From contig NZ_QUWV01000149.1 of assembly GCF_003403295.1 (NCBI RefSeq), forward strand, positions 1-64,000: DNA of 64,000 nt. Reading direction: 5' to 3'. This DNA is from Komagataeibacter melaceti. GTDB lineage: Bacteria; Pseudomonadota; Alphaproteobacteria; Acetobacterales; Acetobacteraceae. The notes beneath the pieces were generated by a model. It was not told the origin of the DNA. It saw nothing but the letters and a program-made list of their open reading frames with translations, and ran no database searches. The position numbers and the translations under genes are program-made. Of this stretch, positions 4,664 through 26,471 are shown piece after piece (the stretch's first letter is position 1; every line of letters starts with the position of its first letter).

Positions 4664-5368
4664 CGCGGTGCCGACATTCTGCACGCCCTCAATCGTGGCA
4701 AGGGCCGCAATCAGGTGGGAAACCGGGCGCCTGCCCCTGACCTGCATGCTCAGCGTCACGACCGGGGTGGTGGATGCCCCGTCACGCAGCAGGGGGGCCG
4801 CACAGTCGCCATCCTGCGCGATATGCACATGGTCCACCGCAAAGCGCAGCCGGGTGCAGGCCACAAGGATATGGCGCAGGATGCCCCTGCCATCGGTATA
4901 GGAAACATCCAGCCGCGTCTGCGCGGGATGGATCTGTGGCAGCAGCCGGGTGAAATACGGAAAGGCGAACATGATGATGAAATGCGCCGCTGTCGCGGCC
5001 AGCGCGAGTTCGACCAGCCCCGCCCCGCACGCCATGCCCACGGCGGCGGTCAGCCAGACGGAAGCCGCCGTGGTCAGCCCCCGCACGGCGTCCCGGCGCA
5101 TGAAAATGACGCCACCGCCAATAAACCCGATGCCCGACACCACCTGTGCCGCCACGCGTGAGGGGTCAAGGATGACCCGCCCGGCGGACAGCACGTCACT
5201 GAAACCGTATTTTGATACGAGCATGATCAGCGCCGCCGCCAGCCCGACCAGCGCATGCGTGCGCATGCCAGCACTTTTCTGACGGAACTCGCGCTCAAGC
5301 CCGATCATGGCGGACAGCGTGAAAGCGGCCAGCAGGTCAACAAGCTGGCACCATGTTCCTGCAATCAT
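4643..5368 (-). CDS. MgtC/SapB-family membrane protein
   Basis: 241-aa inner membrane protein. The N-terminal ~150 residues form the MgtC/SapB membrane domain, with signature blocks LERE (24-27), MRTHALVGL, GIGFIGGG (79-86) and RGLTTAASVW (from 96). The C-terminal ~90 residues form a soluble ACT-like domain, as in longer family members. MgtC proteins affect Mg2+ homeostasis, acid survival and F-type ATPase activity in other bacteria; the role here is unproven. A GGGGAGG ribosome site lies upstream of the start. It converges with the lipoprotein gene, sharing a hairpin at the 3' end. The neighbours give no pathway clue. Confidence 0.88.
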   Translation of the reverse strand: MIAGTWCQLVDLLAAFTLSAMIGLEREFRQKSAGMRTHALVGLAAALIMLVSKYGFSDVLSAGRVILDPSRVAAQVVSGIGFIGGGVIFMRRDAVRGLTTAASVWLTAAVGMACGAGLVELALAATAAHFIIMFAFPYFTRLLPQIHPAQTRLDVSYTDGRGILRHILVACTRLRFAVDHVHIAQDGDCAAPLLRDGASTTPVVTLSMQVRGRRPVSHLIAALATIEGVQNVGTAGDGGLD

Positions 5369-5607
5369 ATGTCACCGTACCTCCCCACCAGAAAAGGCTG
5401 GAATCCCCGTCGGTTCCCGCGGGGCTGCGCCCGCCCCGGTTTCTGCCCCGCCTTTACCCTATCTTAACCCGCCCCCGCGCAGGCTTGGCCCGGACGCGCA
5501 GGCCACGTGGCGCAGATTGGATGCAACAGACCGCGCACCCATCACGTTGAGTGCGGACGCGCCCCGTCCGGGCCGCCTTTCCCACCCACAATGCCGGAGA
5601 GCCAGAC

Positions 5608-6468
5608 ATGACCAGTTCCATTCCACCCCAGAGCCAGCCGCACCAGCCCGGCGTTGAACGACTGATGAACCCGCCAGCCGAACATATCCGCGCCGATTAC
5701 CGGGGCAGCGGCAAGCTGAAGGGCCGCAGGGCGCTGGTCACGGGCGGTGACAGTGGCATCGGCCGCGCCGCCGCGCTGCATTTCGCGCGTGAGGGGGCGG
5801 ATGTGGCCATCCTTTACCTGGAAGAAGATGAGGACGCGCATGAAACCGTCCGCCTGGCCAAAGCCGAGGGCGTGCGGGCGCTGGCCATACGCGGCGATGT
5901 CTCGAACAGCGCGGTGTGCGATGACGCGGTAGGCCAGTGTGTGGAAACGTTCGGCGGCCTCGACATCCTCGTCAACAACGCGGGCGTGCAGTACGTCAGC
6001 GAAGACCTGACGGATATTACTGACGAGATGTGGCAGCGCCACATGGATGTAAACATAAACGGCTATTTTTACATGGCGCGCGCGGCCCTGCCCCATCTGG
6101 GTGAAAAGGGCGTCATCATCAATACATCCTCGATCAACGCCTTCGCGGGCAACCAGTCCCTTGTGGCCTATACCACGACCAAGGCGGCCGAGATGGGGTT
6201 CACCCGCGCCCTTGCACTCCAGCTTGCGCCAAAGGGCATACGTGTCAACGCGGTCGCGCCCGGCCCGGTCTGGACACCACTGCAGCCCGCAAGCTGGGGG
6301 CCGGTTGACCCGCAGGCGGTGGCCGACCTGGGCAAGAAAACGCCCATGGGCCGTATCGGCCAGCCCAGTGAACTGGGTCCGGCCTATGTCTATCTGGCGG
6401 CGGAAGATTCATCCTACGTGACCGGGCAGACCGTGCATGTAAATGGCGGCATGATCATCAATGGCTGA
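5608..6468 (+). CDS. SDR-family oxidoreductase (YghA/YhdF-like)
   Basis: 286-aa short-chain dehydrogenase. The NAD(P) site TGGDSGIG is at 45-52, NNAG at 123-126, and the catalytic Ser175, Tyr188 and Lys192 (YTTTK) are intact. A ~38-residue extension before the Rossmann fold (MTSSIPPQSQPHQPG) is typical of the YghA/general-stress-protein-39 subgroup, whose substrates are carbonyls or sugars and mostly undefined. The ATG at 5608 is chosen because GGAG lies 8 nt upstream; a GTG frame start at 5551 is unsupported. The stop overlaps the start of the next gene by 8 nt, so translation is probably coupled and the product likely works with the sugar isomerase downstream. Confidence 0.88.
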   Translation: MTSSIPPQSQPHQPGVERLMNPPAEHIRADYRGSGKLKGRRALVTGGDSGIGRAAALHFAREGADVAILYLEEDEDAHETVRLAKAEGVRALAIRGDVSNSAVCDDAVGQCVETFGGLDILVNNAGVQYVSEDLTDITDEMWQRHMDVNINGYFYMARAALPHLGEKGVIINTSSINAFAGNQSLVAYTTTKAAEMGFTRALALQLAPKGIRVNAVAPGPVWTPLQPASWGPVDPQAVADLGKKTPMGRIGQPSELGPAYVYLAAEDSSYVTGQTVHVNGGMIING

Positions 6469-7729
6469 ACCCCTGCCCGCGCTGATGCTGCCGGTTTCCT
6501 CATGGCTGCGTCTGGCGCCGCACCGCCGCTGGCTTGACATGCAGGGCCAGCGCCTGCTGGACTTTTCCAAGCCCGCGCGCGTCGAGGATGGTTTCGCCGC
6601 GCTGGATGATGACGGCAGGCTCCCGCCCCACGCCACCGCCGACAGCACGATCAGCGCGCGCATGACCCATGTCTATTCCGTAGCGGCGGGCCGGGGCCTG
6701 CCGGGCTGCGCGCCACTGGCGGCGCATGGGGTGGCCGCCCTGCTCGGCCCGCTGGCGGACCATGAAAACGGCGGGTGGTTCCTGACCCCCGCCCCCGATG
6801 GCGCGCTGCCCGAAAACCCGCGCAAGCAGGCCTATCTGCACAGTTTCGTGGCGCTGGCCGCGTCCTCGGCCACGGTGGCCGGGGTGCCGGGGGCGGACGA
6901 GCTTCTGGCCCGCGCGCTTGCGGTGTGGCAGGCGCATTTCTGGAGCGAGGCGGAAGGCGTCTTTCGTGAAAGTTTCGCGCCCGACTGGTCGGATGAGGAA
7001 GACTACCGTGGCGCCAACGCCAACATGCATTCGGTCGAGACCTGCATGGCCGCGGCCGATGTGACGGGCGACCCGATATGGCGGCACAGGGCGCTGCGCA
7101 TTGCCGGGCGTTTCATCCATGAACTGGCGCGCGGCGCGGACTACCATGTGCCCGAACATTACAGCCGCGACTGGGTACTGCTGAAGGATTACCACCGCGA
7201 CAGCCCGACCGATGCCCTGCGCCCCTATGGCATGACGCCGGGGCATTTTGTGGAATGGTCGCACCTGCTCCTGAAGCTGGAGGCGGCACTGCTGCGCGCG
7301 CACGGCCAGGCGCCCGCGTGGCTGGTGGAAGATGCGGCTGCCCTGTTCCGGCGCGGCATGGAAACCGGCTGGGCGCGTGATGGCGCGCCGGGGCTGCTGT
7401 ACACGATCGACTGGGACGGTACCCCGGTCGTCCACAACCGCCCCCACTGGTGCCAGGCGGAAGCCATGACCGCCGCCGCCGCATTGCTCAAACGCACCGG
7501 TCACCAGCATTACGAACACTGGTACCGCACCCTGTGGGACTATATCGACACCTACATGATCGACCGCAGGCGCGGCGGGTGGATACAGGAGCTGGACCGG
7601 CACAACCGGCCATCAGCCGTGGTGTATGAAGGCAAGGCCGACCTGTACCACGCCTGGCAGGCCACGATCACGCCCCTGCTGCCGCTTGCCCCCAGCTTCG
7701 CCACGGCTGTCTCCCTGCTGGAAGGGTAG
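6461..7729 (+). CDS. AGE-family sugar epimerase/isomerase (mannose isomerase-like)
   Basis: 422-aa cytoplasmic (alpha/alpha)6-barrel protein of the N-acylglucosamine 2-epimerase family. It carries the conserved blocks RMTHVYS (67-73), ANMHSVE (187-193, His190), GHFVEW (261-266, His262/Glu265) and DLYHAWQ (His397), which supply the histidines for aldose-ketose interconversion. This motif set and the length resemble the YihS/mannose isomerase branch rather than the ATP-requiring GlcNAc epimerases, so D-mannose/D-fructose conversion is the best guess. It starts inside the SDR gene and converges with the porin gene downstream, only 4 nt apart. Substrate is inferred. Confidence 0.82.
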   Translation: MAEPLPALMLPVSSWLRLAPHRRWLDMQGQRLLDFSKPARVEDGFAALDDDGRLPPHATADSTISARMTHVYSVAAGRGLPGCAPLAAHGVAALLGPLADHENGGWFLTPAPDGALPENPRKQAYLHSFVALAASSATVAGVPGADELLARALAVWQAHFWSEAEGVFRESFAPDWSDEEDYRGANANMHSVETCMAAADVTGDPIWRHRALRIAGRFIHELARGADYHVPEHYSRDWVLLKDYHRDSPTDALRPYGMTPGHFVEWSHLLLKLEAALLRAHGQAPAWLVEDAAALFRRGMETGWARDGAPGLLYTIDWDGTPVVHNRPHWCQAEAMTAAAALLKRTGHQHYEHWYRTLWDYIDTYMIDRRRGGWIQELDRHNRPSAVVYEGKADLYHAWQATITPLLPLAPSFATAVSLLEG

Positions 7730-22489: not shown

Positions 22490-23320
22490 TCAGGCGGAAT
22501 GGGCCACTTTCGCGGCGGGGCGATGACGCACCAGATGCCCCGTTACCGTCAGCACGATACAGGTGCAGACCCATGCCAGTATCTGCACGCCCGTGGGCCG
22601 GTCGGAATAACCGAACAGCGCCTTGGCCGCACGGCCGACCATGCTGCCATCCGACAGCAGCCACGACGTATCCCATATGTCATAGCCCAGCGCGGGCAGC
22701 AGGTCGTCACTGGCCAGCAGGGCCGCCGCCTGGCTGGCCATGCCCGCCGCAAGGAACGTGACCAGCAGCCCGGTTACGGCAAACAGGCGGTTGAGCGGAA
22801 TGACCACAAGCCCCCGGTACAGCGCCCATGACAGCCCGGCCCCGGCCACGACCCCAAGCACGCCACCAACCAGCATGGGCACCGGCCCCGTGCCGCTGGA
22901 AATGGCGATGCCGTACAGGAACAGCACCACCTCCATCCCTTCGCGCAGGACGGCCACGGCCACGACAATGGCCATGGCCAGCAGGGAGCGGCTGCCGCTG
23001 GCCACCTCGGCCCCGACGGCCTTCATGTCGCGCGCCATTTCACGGCCATGGCGGGCCATCCATACGATATGCCAGCCCAGCATCACCACCGCGAGGCACA
23101 GGATCACCGCCGAAAACACATCCTGCCCGTTACCGGACAGCGCCTGTGACAGCGCCCCGGCAAAGAGTGCCAGAATACCCGCCCCCAGCACGCCCGCGCC
23201 AATGCCCCCCGCGATCCACCGCCCGCGAAAGGGGATGCCCTGCGTGGCCGCCAGCACGATCCCGACAATCAGCCCGGCTTCCATCACCTCACGGAAAACG
23301 ATCAGAAGACTGCCCAGCAT
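22490..23320 (-). CDS. FTR1/EfeU-family iron permease
   Basis: 276 aa, seven hydrophobic segments. Both iron-binding REXXE motifs of the family are present: REVME at 10-14 and REGME at 126-130. FTR1/EfeU moves iron across the inner membrane. It begins 1 nt after the stop of the upstream cupredoxin gene, so the two form an operon. No EfeB-type peroxidase or EfeO M75 domain is in the window; the cupredoxin probably substitutes as the periplasmic partner, as in reduced Efe-like systems (inference). Confidence 0.92.
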   Translation of the reverse strand: MLGSLLIVFREVMEAGLIVGIVLAATQGIPFRGRWIAGGIGAGVLGAGILALFAGALSQALSGNGQDVFSAVILCLAVVMLGWHIVWMARHGREMARDMKAVGAEVASGSRSLLAMAIVVAVAVLREGMEVVLFLYGIAISSGTGPVPMLVGGVLGVVAGAGLSWALYRGLVVIPLNRLFAVTGLLVTFLAAGMASQAAALLASDDLLPALGYDIWDTSWLLSDGSMVGRAAKALFGYSDRPTGVQILAWVCTCIVLTVTGHLVRHRPAAKVAHSA

Positions 23321-23321
23321 G

Positions 23322-23663
23322 TCAGGGGGCCTCCGTCACGGTTACGGTGCCTGTGGCGCTGTCGGGGTGGTAGTCGTCAAAGAATTTGTAGGTGCCGGGG
23401 TGCAGCGGCCCCGCATGGACCGAAATCGTGCCGCCCTGCACCACGATCTTTTCGAATTTCAGGTCGTAGCTTTCAAATTCATCGACCGTATCATCATGGT
23501 TCGTCAGTTCGATGATGAACCGCTGCCCCGCCGGCACCGTAAAGTGGTCGGGGGTGAAGTGATGGTCCTTCACTTCCAGATGGATCGGCTCCACCGCGCG
23601 TGCGGTCCCGGCCACGGCCACCAGAACGGATGCAAGAATTATTTGGGGGAATGAAATTCGCAT
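23322..23663 (-). CDS. Periplasmic cupredoxin-domain protein, FTR1 partner
   Basis: 113 aa. Signal peptide with cleavage around GTARAVEP (residue ~23). The mature domain is a cupredoxin fold of the EfeO N-terminal type: LEVKDHHFTPDHFTVPAGQRFIIELTNHD, then GPLHPGTYKFFDDYHP. A strict blue-copper His-Cys-His-Met set is not present (no Cys in the mature part), so copper or iron may bind through the His/Asp/Glu residues. It is first in a two-gene operon with FTR1, and likely delivers or oxidises iron for that permease. Confidence 0.85.
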   Translation of the reverse strand: MRISFPQIILASVLVAVAGTARAVEPIHLEVKDHHFTPDHFTVPAGQRFIIELTNHDDTVDEFESYDLKFEKIVVQGGTISVHAGPLHPGTYKFFDDYHPDSATGTVTVTEAP

Positions 23664-24147: not shown

Positions 24148-25359
24148 TCAGGCCGCCAGTTCCGCATCCGCCGCGGAACCGAAGAACTCAAACCGGATCG
24201 CCGCATCAGGCACCCCGGCGGCCTTCAGCACCGCAACCATCTCCCGCATGAAGCCATCCGGCCCACAGATATAGTACACGGTATCCGGCCGGGCCTGCGC
24301 CTTCAGCCATGCGGGGGTGAGACGGCCCGCATGCTGCGTGGTGCCTGCATCTTCCGCTGTCTCCAGCGCGGTTTCACGGCTGTAGAACACATCATGCCGG
24401 ACCCGACCGGTCGTCGCCAGCTTGCGGATGTGCTGGCCGAACGCCTCGGTCTGCGGGGTGCGCGTGGCGTGCACGTAATGGATGGCGGGCGCGCTCTCGC
24501 CCGCCATGAGCGTATCGAGCATGGACATGAGCGGCGTCAGGCCCACACCGGCGCTGAGCAGCATGATCGGGGATGCGGCAGGCCCGCCCAGCACGAAGTC
24601 ACCCGCCGGGGCGGAAACCTGCAGTTCCGTGCCCTCGTGCACGCTGTCATGCAGCCATTCGGACACGACGCCACCGGGGATGCGCCGCACGCTGATGCGG
24701 TAGGAAGCCCCGTCCGGCGCGGACGAGATGCTGTAGTTGCGTCGCTGCGAACCATGGCCGGGCACATCAAGCCGGAAGCTGAGATACTGCCCCGGCACAT
24801 GGCGCATGACCGGCTTTCCATCGGTCGGCACGAGTTCAAAGGAGGTAACCGTCTCGCTCTCACGCACGCGGCGGCCAACGCGGAACGGCCGCCAGCCAAC
24901 CCAGCCACCCGGCGCGACTTCATGGGACTGGTAGATTTCCTTTTCACGCCCGATCAGCACATCCGCCAGGAACCAGTACGCCTTGCCCCATGCATCAAGG
25001 ATTTCCGGCGTTGCAGCATCACCCAGCACATGGGCGATCGCGCCCAGCAGCGCCTCCGCCACATAGGGGTAATGCGCGGGCAGGATGTTCAGGCCCACAT
25101 GCTTTTCAGCAATGCGTTCGATCATGGCCCCCAGCACGCCGGGGTTATCAATATTCCGGGCATAGGCCAGCACCGCCAGCGCAAGCGCGCGCGGCTGCTC
25201 GCCATCCTTCTGGTGGGACATGTTGAACAGGTCGCGAATGTCCGGGTTGGCCAGCAGGCGGCGGTACATTTCCGTCGTGATCGCAACGCCGTGCGCTTCC
25301 AGCGCGGGGACGCAGGCCTTGATGATGGAACGGGTCGCGTCGTCCAGGGGAGCAGCCAT
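24148..25359 (-). CDS. hmp: Flavohemoprotein (nitric oxide dioxygenase)
   Basis: 403 aa, the standard length. Globin domain 1-~140 with proximal His87 (AEKHVGL) and a Tyr near residue 32 for the distal pocket. FAD/NAD reductase domain follows, with RNYSIS for FAD, PAGDFVL, SAGVGLTPLMSML for the nicotinamide/phosphate loop and YYICGPDGFM near the end. It converts NO plus O2 to nitrate using NAD(P)H. A strong AGGAG lies 6 nt upstream of the start. Its promoter region carries two NsrR boxes shared with the divergent nsrR gene, so expression is presumably induced by NO. Confidence 0.96.
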   Translation of the reverse strand: MAAPLDDATRSIIKACVPALEAHGVAITTEMYRRLLANPDIRDLFNMSHQKDGEQPRALALAVLAYARNIDNPGVLGAMIERIAEKHVGLNILPAHYPYVAEALLGAIAHVLGDAATPEILDAWGKAYWFLADVLIGREKEIYQSHEVAPGGWVGWRPFRVGRRVRESETVTSFELVPTDGKPVMRHVPGQYLSFRLDVPGHGSQRRNYSISSAPDGASYRISVRRIPGGVVSEWLHDSVHEGTELQVSAPAGDFVLGGPAASPIMLLSAGVGLTPLMSMLDTLMAGESAPAIHYVHATRTPQTEAFGQHIRKLATTGRVRHDVFYSRETALETAEDAGTTQHAGRLTPAWLKAQARPDTVYYICGPDGFMREMVAVLKAAGVPDAAIRFEFFGSAADAELAA

Positions 25360-25370
25360 GTTTCACTCCT

Positions 25371-25393
25371 AAGATGTAAGTTACGCACATCTT
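25371..25393. promoter_or_regulatory. NsrR operator 1 (hmp-proximal)
   Basis: AAGATGT-N9-ACATCTT, a perfect inverted repeat, matching the proteobacterial NsrR consensus arms (AAGATGY...RCATCTT at the same spacing). It begins 12 nt upstream of the hmp ATG, where it would cover the transcription start. Confidence 0.85.
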
Positions 25394-25410
25394 TCAATAC
25401 CCTCTGGAAA

Positions 25411-25433
25411 AAGATGTCAATGGCGTATATCTT
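25411..25433. promoter_or_regulatory. NsrR operator 2 (nsrR-proximal)
   Basis: AAGATGT-N9-ATATCTT, one base off a perfect repeat and spaced 40 bp centre to centre from operator 1. It contains TATATC, a possible -10 for nsrR, and ends 6 nt before the nsrR ATG, which implies autoregulation and perhaps a near-leaderless mRNA. Confidence 0.8.
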
Positions 25434-25439
25434 TATGTG

Positions 25440-25874
25440 ATGCGATTGACCCTTCATACCGACTATGCGCTCAGGACATTGATGTACCTGGCCGTCCATA
25501 CGGATCGCCTGTCCTCGATCCGTGAAATCGCGACGGCATATGGCATTTCGGAAAACCACCTGATGAAGATCATCCATCGGCTTGCCCTGGGCGGTTTTAT
25601 TGAAACCATCCGCGGGCGCGGTGGCGGCATGCGCCTTGCCCGCCCTGCATCCGCAATCCGCATTGGCGATGTCGTGCGCCATACGGAGGAAGACATGGCG
25701 CTGGTCGGCTGCCTGCAATCGGGCGGCGCGAAGGATACGGCCCCCTGCCTGCTGGCCGATGCCTGCCGCCTGCGCGGCGCGCTGGGCGAGGCGCTGGGTT
25801 CCTTCATGACGGTGCTGGATGGCTACACGCTGGCGGATGTCGTTACATCCCACGAGCGCCAGCGCCTGGCCTGA
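25440..25874 (+). CDS. nsrR: Rrf2-family NO-sensing repressor NsrR
   Basis: 144 aa. N-terminal winged HTH (MRLTLHTDYALRTLMYLAV, SIREIATAYGISENHLMKIIHRLALGGFIETIRGRGGG). Three cysteines for the [Fe-S] cluster at 91, 103 and 109 (GCLQSG...APCLLADACRL); the first gap (11 residues) is wider than in well-studied NsrR/IscR proteins. The cluster reacts with NO and the protein then leaves DNA. The ATG at 25440 directly follows a GTG at 25437; no ribosome site is visible, consistent with a very short leader. It is divergent from hmp, with two matching operators between them, which settles the call within the Rrf2 family. Confidence 0.92.
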   Translation: MRLTLHTDYALRTLMYLAVHTDRLSSIREIATAYGISENHLMKIIHRLALGGFIETIRGRGGGMRLARPASAIRIGDVVRHTEEDMALVGCLQSGGAKDTAPCLLADACRLRGALGEALGSFMTVLDGYTLADVVTSHERQRLA

Positions 25875-26015: not shown

Positions 26016-26471
26016 ATGCTTACCCTCTCGGACGATTTCAGGAATTTCCTGATATCCAGTGAAAGTATTTCCGAATCCGAGCTGCACCTTTCAACCCGGA
26101 TTGTGGAAGATCTTGGTCTGGATGGGTATGATGCCCAGTGTCTCCTGGAGAACTATATCGACACTTTCCCCATAGATGTGGGGGACTTTGATTACTATCG
26201 ATATTTCCGCGACGAAACACCGTCTTTATTTATTTTTCTTATCATACCCATGCTGTTATTCATGCTGTTCCGGTTCCTGATCTGGCAATGCCTTCTGGGC
26301 AAGCCTGCCCCGAAGCGGAAAGATGTCGTGATGACACTGGCCATGCTGCAGCAGGCGATTGATGATGGCGTATGGAACTGCGCGCGCCTCGAATCCCTTG
26401 CCGGCACGCAAGTCTATCCCCCTCCCCCCAAAAAACCGGGATGGTTCGCGCGCCTGCGCAACAGGGCGTGA
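26016..26471 (+). CDS. DUF1493-like protein with membrane segment
   Basis: 151 aa. The N-terminal half has the DUF1493 pattern (STRIVEDLGLDGYDAQCLLENYIDTFPIDVGDFDYYRYF), which resembles an acyl-carrier-like fold without a proven role. It is followed by a hydrophobic stretch (FIFLIIPMLLFMLFRFLIW) and a soluble tail (KDVVMTLAMLQQAIDDGVW, then PPPPKKPGWFARLRNRA). The tail residues KDVVMTLAMLQQAIDDG also recur in DUF1493 proteins. The start is preceded by GGAGG (GCTGGAGG, 7-8 nt away). It sits alone between nsrR and nhaA, with base composition more A/T-rich than its neighbours, which may hint at a later acquisition. Confidence 0.7.
   Translation: MLTLSDDFRNFLISSESISESELHLSTRIVEDLGLDGYDAQCLLENYIDTFPIDVGDFDYYRYFRDETPSLFIFLIIPMLLFMLFRFLIWQCLLGKPAPKRKDVVMTLAMLQQAIDDGVWNCARLESLAGTQVYPPPPKKPGWFARLRNRA

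Follow-up and report, generated by a model that had tools for sequence, protein, structure and literature searches.

The 80-nt intergenic region between hmp and a divergent Rrf2-type regulator gene of Komagataeibacter melaceti (positions 25360–25439) is best read as a bidirectional, self-repressing operator of the NsrR type that would respond to NO, with two interlocked promoters and a leaderless regulator gene. We put the probability of this reading at roughly 0.8. In this arrangement, one half of an operator would serve as the -10 element of the leaderless repressor gene while the other half holds the -35 element of its target gene. With the two promoter elements in separate operator halves, repression and autoregulation could be separable by single mutations. 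The locus would also add the Acetobacteraceae to the bacteria with hmp-linked control of the NsrR type.

Two inverted-repeat boxes between hmp and a divergent regulator gene

In the window, by which we mean the whole 64,000-nt stretch of DNA that was analysed, hmp starts at 25359 on the minus strand (24148–25359) and encodes a 403-aa NO-inducible flavohemoprotein (498.9 bits with NCBIfam NF009805, whose cut-off is 432), in which a domain search found globin, FAD-binding and NAD-binding domains. The regulator gene, here called nsrR, starts at 25440 on the plus strand (25440–25874, 144 aa). Box 1 (25371–25393) is a 23-bp palindrome without mismatches, AAGATGT-N9-ACATCTT, that spans the presumed hmp start region and adjoins the hmp Shine-Dalgarno sequence, AGGAG (25366–25370, minus strand), 6 nt before the hmp ATG. 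Box 2 (25411–25433) carries a single mismatch (ATATCTT for ACATCTT) and overlaps both the predicted hmp -35 element and the predicted nsrR -10 element. The two boxes are 40 bp apart, start to start, and the regulator ATG follows box 2 by 6 nt, although translation might instead begin at a GTG in the same frame at 25437. The preliminary description had reported this layout, a perfect box with a one-change copy 40 bp away in an 80-nt hmp/nsrR divergent region, and it was borne out, the regulator being an Rrf2 protein. Among the neighbouring genes, an FTR1-type iron permease and a cupredoxin-domain protein are encoded near hmp (22490–23663), and a DUF1493 protein with no NCBIfam match lies between nsrR and nhaA (26016–26471).

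The motif with up to three mismatches matches four places in the window, where shuffled sequences lead one to expect 0.64, and four matches were reached in none of 100 shuffles. Boxes 1 and 2 score 26.6 and 22.7, respectively, with a matrix that leaves out the window and was built from 58 boxes at 29 other loci, which are relatives of the loci scored. A second matrix, which takes in all 30 loci including that of the window, gives at most 6.0 for the 63,778 other positions in the window. A chance repeat as the origin of the boxes was rejected on the shuffles and matrix scores together with the genome counts and family tandem counts given below.

The predicted regulon comprises hmp and the regulator gene

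The preliminary description had proposed a genome-wide count of the motif as a way to define the regulon. In the 3.49-Mb genome, the two boxes are the only sites found with at most one mismatch (two sites, against one for the control) and also the only ones found with a relaxed motif, AAGRTRY-N9-RYAYCTT (two against none), while at up to three mismatches the count rises to 94, and that of the control pattern to 45. Across 19 genomes of the genus, the relaxed motif occurs 32 times against eight for the control, and matching by script placed 31 of these sites at most 120 nt upstream of hmp or of the regulator ortholog, with a single off-target site (G013:C11). This distribution suggests that the regulon predicted at relaxed-motif stringency consists of hmp and the regulator itself. 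A wider regulon was considered and rejected: 13 further sites in the genome, all 12 with two mismatches and one with three, reached at best 15.1, 14.2 and 12.7, against 26.6 and 22.7 for the two boxes, and all but one of the 13 lie inside open frames that are 120 or more codons long.

One of the 19 genomes scanned, G008, has no relaxed-motif site. The divergent partner of its hmp gene (G008:C3:138212–139929) is another Rrf2 gene, of 56% identity, and the hmp boxes are weak, with scores of 12.9 and 9.0. The different neighbour and the weak boxes together suggest that the regulator has been swapped at this locus.

The regulator is probably NsrR-like

The regulator has a clear Rrf2 domain (PF02082, 120.4 bits against a cut-off of 30). 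It falls below the cut-offs of both relevant NCBIfam models, with 128 bits for NsrR (cut-off 182) and 141 bits for RirA (cut-off 193). The NsrR model passes its cut-off in only 1 of 14 control genomes, indicating that it is a narrow model, and the RirA model exceeds its own in none of 76 genomes of the class and none of the 14 controls. The best solved relative of the regulator is NsrR of Streptomyces coelicolor (5n07), with which D8, C91, C103 and C109 align; these residues are invariant in eight aligned sequences, window included. Asp8 is described as a cluster ligand in S. coelicolor NsrR in the part of that report available to us (PMC9338935). The NsrR cut-off is missed, yet the model is narrow, for which reason we name the regulator NsrR-like, and its target genes make it likely that it is NsrR-like in function as well. 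The name NsrR used in the preliminary description is likely to be right, with neither family model reaching its cut-off.

The regulator might instead be an iron- or Fe-S-responsive protein, RirA-like or another Rrf2 member, so that the main signal to the operator would be iron or redox state in place of NO. The higher of the two model scores is that for RirA, a tree of the regulator's relatives (31 rows; L007 dropped beforehand) does not split NsrR from RirA-like proteins, and the FTR1-like permease and the cupredoxin-domain protein lie near hmp, all of which would suit such a protein. The concentration of relaxed sites at hmp or the regulator's own gene, the best solved match and the conserved Asp8 with its role in S. 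coelicolor speak against it, and we regard an iron or redox regulator as unlikely here and keep the NsrR-like assignment.

The genome encodes further Rrf2 paralogs. Two lie side by side (L023:7627–8623 and 4969–7287), share 51% and 43% identity with the regulator studied here, and adjoin genes that we read as a putative formate-dehydrogenase-type molybdopterin oxidoreductase and molybdenum-cofactor genes. The third (L024:5882–6334, 39%) is near a putative two-component system and an efflux pump, also named by reading.

The tandem arrangement recurs in the family

We defined a strict tandem pattern as two relaxed boxes with a start-to-start spacing of 25–55 bp. Of 397 genomes of the family, 14 of the 397 being from the genus itself, 37 carry it, spread over 9 of the 102 genera, and the control pattern had no hit; the 360 genomes from which it is absent are counted whatever their hmp/nsrR content. 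At the 38 tandem places found, match coordinates give spacings of 37 bp (3), 38 bp (4), 39 bp (15) and 40 bp (16). A set of named loci, the best 80 of 529 found, has a divergent hmp in 55 cases and matches the strict pattern in 27; since these loci share species with other genomes counted, the tallies are not independent of each other. At a matrix score of at least 10, box 1 is present in 54 of the 55 hmp-divergent loci and both boxes in 34, with the latter spaced by 38 bp (5), 39 bp (19) or 40 bp (10). Box 2 could in principle be the only functional site, with box 1 a remnant or a product of chance, but nothing was found in favour of this and box 1 is kept more often than box 2 (54 of 55 against 34), and we consider it extremely improbable. 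The nearest named relative among the matches listed is K. saccharivorans, at 83% identity.

In a class-wide sample, the tandem pattern was found in 1 of 385 genomes, which is the genome studied here; five of the 385 belong to the family. Two loci of Hansschlegelia (L232 and L235), a genus that we take to lie outside the Acetobacteraceae, have tandem boxes between hmp and nsrR that match the strict pattern, indicating that the class sample missed holders outside the family. It is possible that these boxes arose by horizontal transfer.

The layout of the predicted hmp promoter fits the spacing of the boxes

The predicted hmp -35 element, TTGACA (25415–25420, minus strand), lies within box 2. All 22 hmp promoters of the genus that could be read have this word inside box 2, even where nsrR is elsewhere (hmp loci L059–L078). 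A 23rd promoter, L073, was dropped for its misplaced start, and a TTGACA box does precede its hmp as well. The hmp -10 element is weak and tentative, either TATTGA with a 15-bp spacer or TTGAAA with a 17-bp spacer (25392–25399, minus strand), and a simple sigma-70 promoter scan of 25200–25600 returned no promoter. Two boxes in register (score >8) and 36–40 bp apart are found in 18 of the 22 promoters, while the remaining four show one box, with a second palindrome, one base longer, still readable. Furthermore, all 20 named loci with box 1 only and a divergent hmp have a TTGACA-like word at -23 to -26, which reads TGTCAA, TGTAAA or TGCAAA on the nsrR strand.

The 40-bp spacing had been taken as about four helical turns that would place two NsrR dimers on the same face of the DNA. 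This was not supported: 40 bp corresponds to 3.81 turns, 69 degrees short of four, and the 36–40 bp of the relatives span 3.43–3.81 turns, with phase angles between 154 and 291 degrees. That the dimers cooperate side by side on a shared face might still be suspected from the narrow range of spacings (37–40 bp at the 38 tandem places), but the relatives' spacings would set the two dimers at quite different angles, and the distance from the hmp -35 element to the start region already explains the spacing. We therefore consider spacing for same-face binding very unlikely. With box 2 over the predicted -35 element and box 1 over the presumed start region, the layout of the hmp promoter fits the box spacing better than does the helical face.

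The regulator gene is predicted to be leaderless

On the plus strand, we found a predicted nsrR -35 element, CTGGAA (25404–25409), and a predicted -10 element, TATATC (25426–25431), the latter within box 2. Each is conserved in 18 of 19 orthologs of the genus, at -36 or -37 for CTGGAA and at -13 or -14 from the ATG for TATATC, and the spacer is 16–18 bp in the ortholog rows that have both. The geometry of these elements places the predicted transcription start at the A of the ATG or 1–2 nt before it (25438–25440, plus strand). The base at -1 of the ATG is C in 18 of the 19 orthologs, the exception being the window, with G. The words searched for Shine-Dalgarno, -10 and -35 sequences were the conventional consensus words. 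No searched Shine-Dalgarno word occurs at -25 to -1 of the window regulator, and none starts within -23 to -1 in the 19 orthologs, five of which show such a word at -24 or -25. The starts might overlap as AUGUGAUG at 25435–25442, but this was discarded, as it is absent from the other 18 orthologs.

The genes hmp and nsrR are not neighbours in 16 of the 19 genomes, being 8.8–9.4 kb apart in five of these, and in five named Komagataeibacter loci (L168–L171 and L175) box 2 scores at most 3.7, its palindrome decayed. TATATC and CTGGAA keep a fixed distance from the ATG in spite of the displaced hmp and the decayed palindrome, which points to TATATC as a promoter element and more than just an operator half-site. 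The -10-like and half-site sequences do overlap and share part of their conservation, so that transcription of nsrR could begin further upstream, giving a leader of shorter or greater length, and TATATC be merely half of an operator. This would leave the held distances to the ATG in the loci with decayed palindromes and hmp elsewhere without an explanation, and we judge it quite unlikely. The leaderless reading is well supported by these sequence features, and the message of the regulator probably starts at the start codon.

Consistent with this, a script placed the nsrR ATG 4–6 nt past box 2 at 24 of 30 tandem loci, and reading the sequence added two more (L113 and L134). Among the four others, no nsrR could be recognised in L112, whereas hmp is present with no adjacent nsrR in L125, L128 and L130. 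The preliminary description had suggested that nsrR is possibly leaderless, with an ATG 6 nt past box 2, no ribosome site and TATATC as its -10 element, and the conserved elements, their distances and the missing Shine-Dalgarno words support it on each point.

Loci without box 2 offer natural comparisons

An SD-like word was found in 1 of the 34 hmp-divergent loci with box 2 (L235, where it is inside box 2) against 9 of the 21 without it. In these nine loci, the word is GAGGA near the nsrR start, and all are from Gluconobacter (L187, L188, L190, L191, L193, L195, L204, L205 and L219; 9 of 12 Gluconobacter loci, none of which has box 2). The other 12 of the 21 loci without box 2 also have no Shine-Dalgarno word, so the missing word and box 2 are not strictly coupled. 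In particular, four Acetobacter loci (L183–L186) have no box 2 and no Shine-Dalgarno word and keep the CTGG element, a pattern that suggests that leaderless expression can do without box 2. The losses of box 2 in Acetobacter and Gluconobacter can serve as natural comparisons.

Proposed mechanism

We propose that a dimer of an NsrR-type Rrf2 repressor binds each 23-bp box. The dimer on box 2 would block both genes at once by covering the hmp -35 element, TTGACA, on one strand and the regulator -10 element, TATATC, on the other. The dimer on box 1, over the hmp start region, would act as a second block and make the control of hmp tighter. NO would damage the Fe-S cluster of the repressor, so that both boxes are freed and both promoters open, and the regulator mRNA, beginning at or next to its AUG, would be translated as a leaderless message.

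The two promoters are interlocked: the nsrR -35 element (25404–25409) lies inside the hmp spacer and the hmp -35 element (25415–25420) lies inside the nsrR spacer. Since each -35 element falls within the spacer of the other promoter, the region probably accommodates one polymerase at a time. This might go further and form a one-way switch, in which, as long as NO keeps the repressor off, polymerase at the hmp promoter, with its consensus -35 element, excludes polymerase from the leaderless nsrR promoter and new repressor is made only once hmp transcription has dropped; we offer this as a tentative extension that is doubtful at present. If it were true, Gluconobacter, with no box 2 and a Shine-Dalgarno sequence at 9 of its 12 loci, would represent a natural rewiring that separates the supply of the repressor from the switch.

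Comparison with known systems

NsrR-repressed, overlapping nsrR-hmpA promoters and control regions with two sites are already known. In the open-licence literature, as covered by titles and some passages, neither a leaderless nsrR nor the tandem-box arrangement in the Acetobacteraceae was found to be described. Among publications pairing NsrR with "leaderless", none is by its title about a leaderless nsrR, one case concerning another transcript, and among those on NsrR with Acetobacter, none is by its title on this system. In the passages available, a 2005 survey reports no alpha-proteobacterial NsrR save that of R. capsulatus E1F1 (PMC1274295), and a publication from 2026 deals with NsrR of Magnetospirillum and refers to control by NsrR in Paracoccus denitrificans (PMC12774639).

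The statements on individual systems that follow are likewise drawn from parts of the reports cited. In Gluconobacter oxydans 621H, a member of the same family, 62 of 1344 mRNAs (5%) are leaderless, 57 of them with ATG, with leaderless defined by a start site at most 3 nt from the start codon; its main text mentions neither NsrR nor Rrf2 (PMC5756330). The norB-nirK region of Neisseria is similar in having divergent genes with a common upstream region and two candidate NsrR sites, but it is not a case of autoregulation (PMC1274295).

NsrR of S. coelicolor resembles the regulator studied here in its small regulon (hmpA1, hmpA2 and nsrR), in its 23-bp site made of two 11-bp inverted repeats (PMC4432287), and in its cluster, which is bound through three Cys plus one oxygen ligand (PMC4432287; 5n07). 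It differs in that a single site is protected per promoter, and the site sequence is unlike other NsrR sites (PMC4432287). For S. coelicolor, two sites no more than 70 bp from the start codon had earlier been predicted at 18 promoters (PMC2577008).

The nsrR-hmpA region of Vibrio vulnificus is likewise divergent with overlapping promoters, and NsrR binds the overlap and represses both hmpA and its own gene (PMC8175989). In the passages available, one NsrR binding sequence is named there, AGGA ribosome sites are marked, and Lrp and CRP also act (PMC8175989). In contrast, the Komagataeibacter locus has two boxes, an nsrR without a Shine-Dalgarno sequence and a predicted leaderless start.
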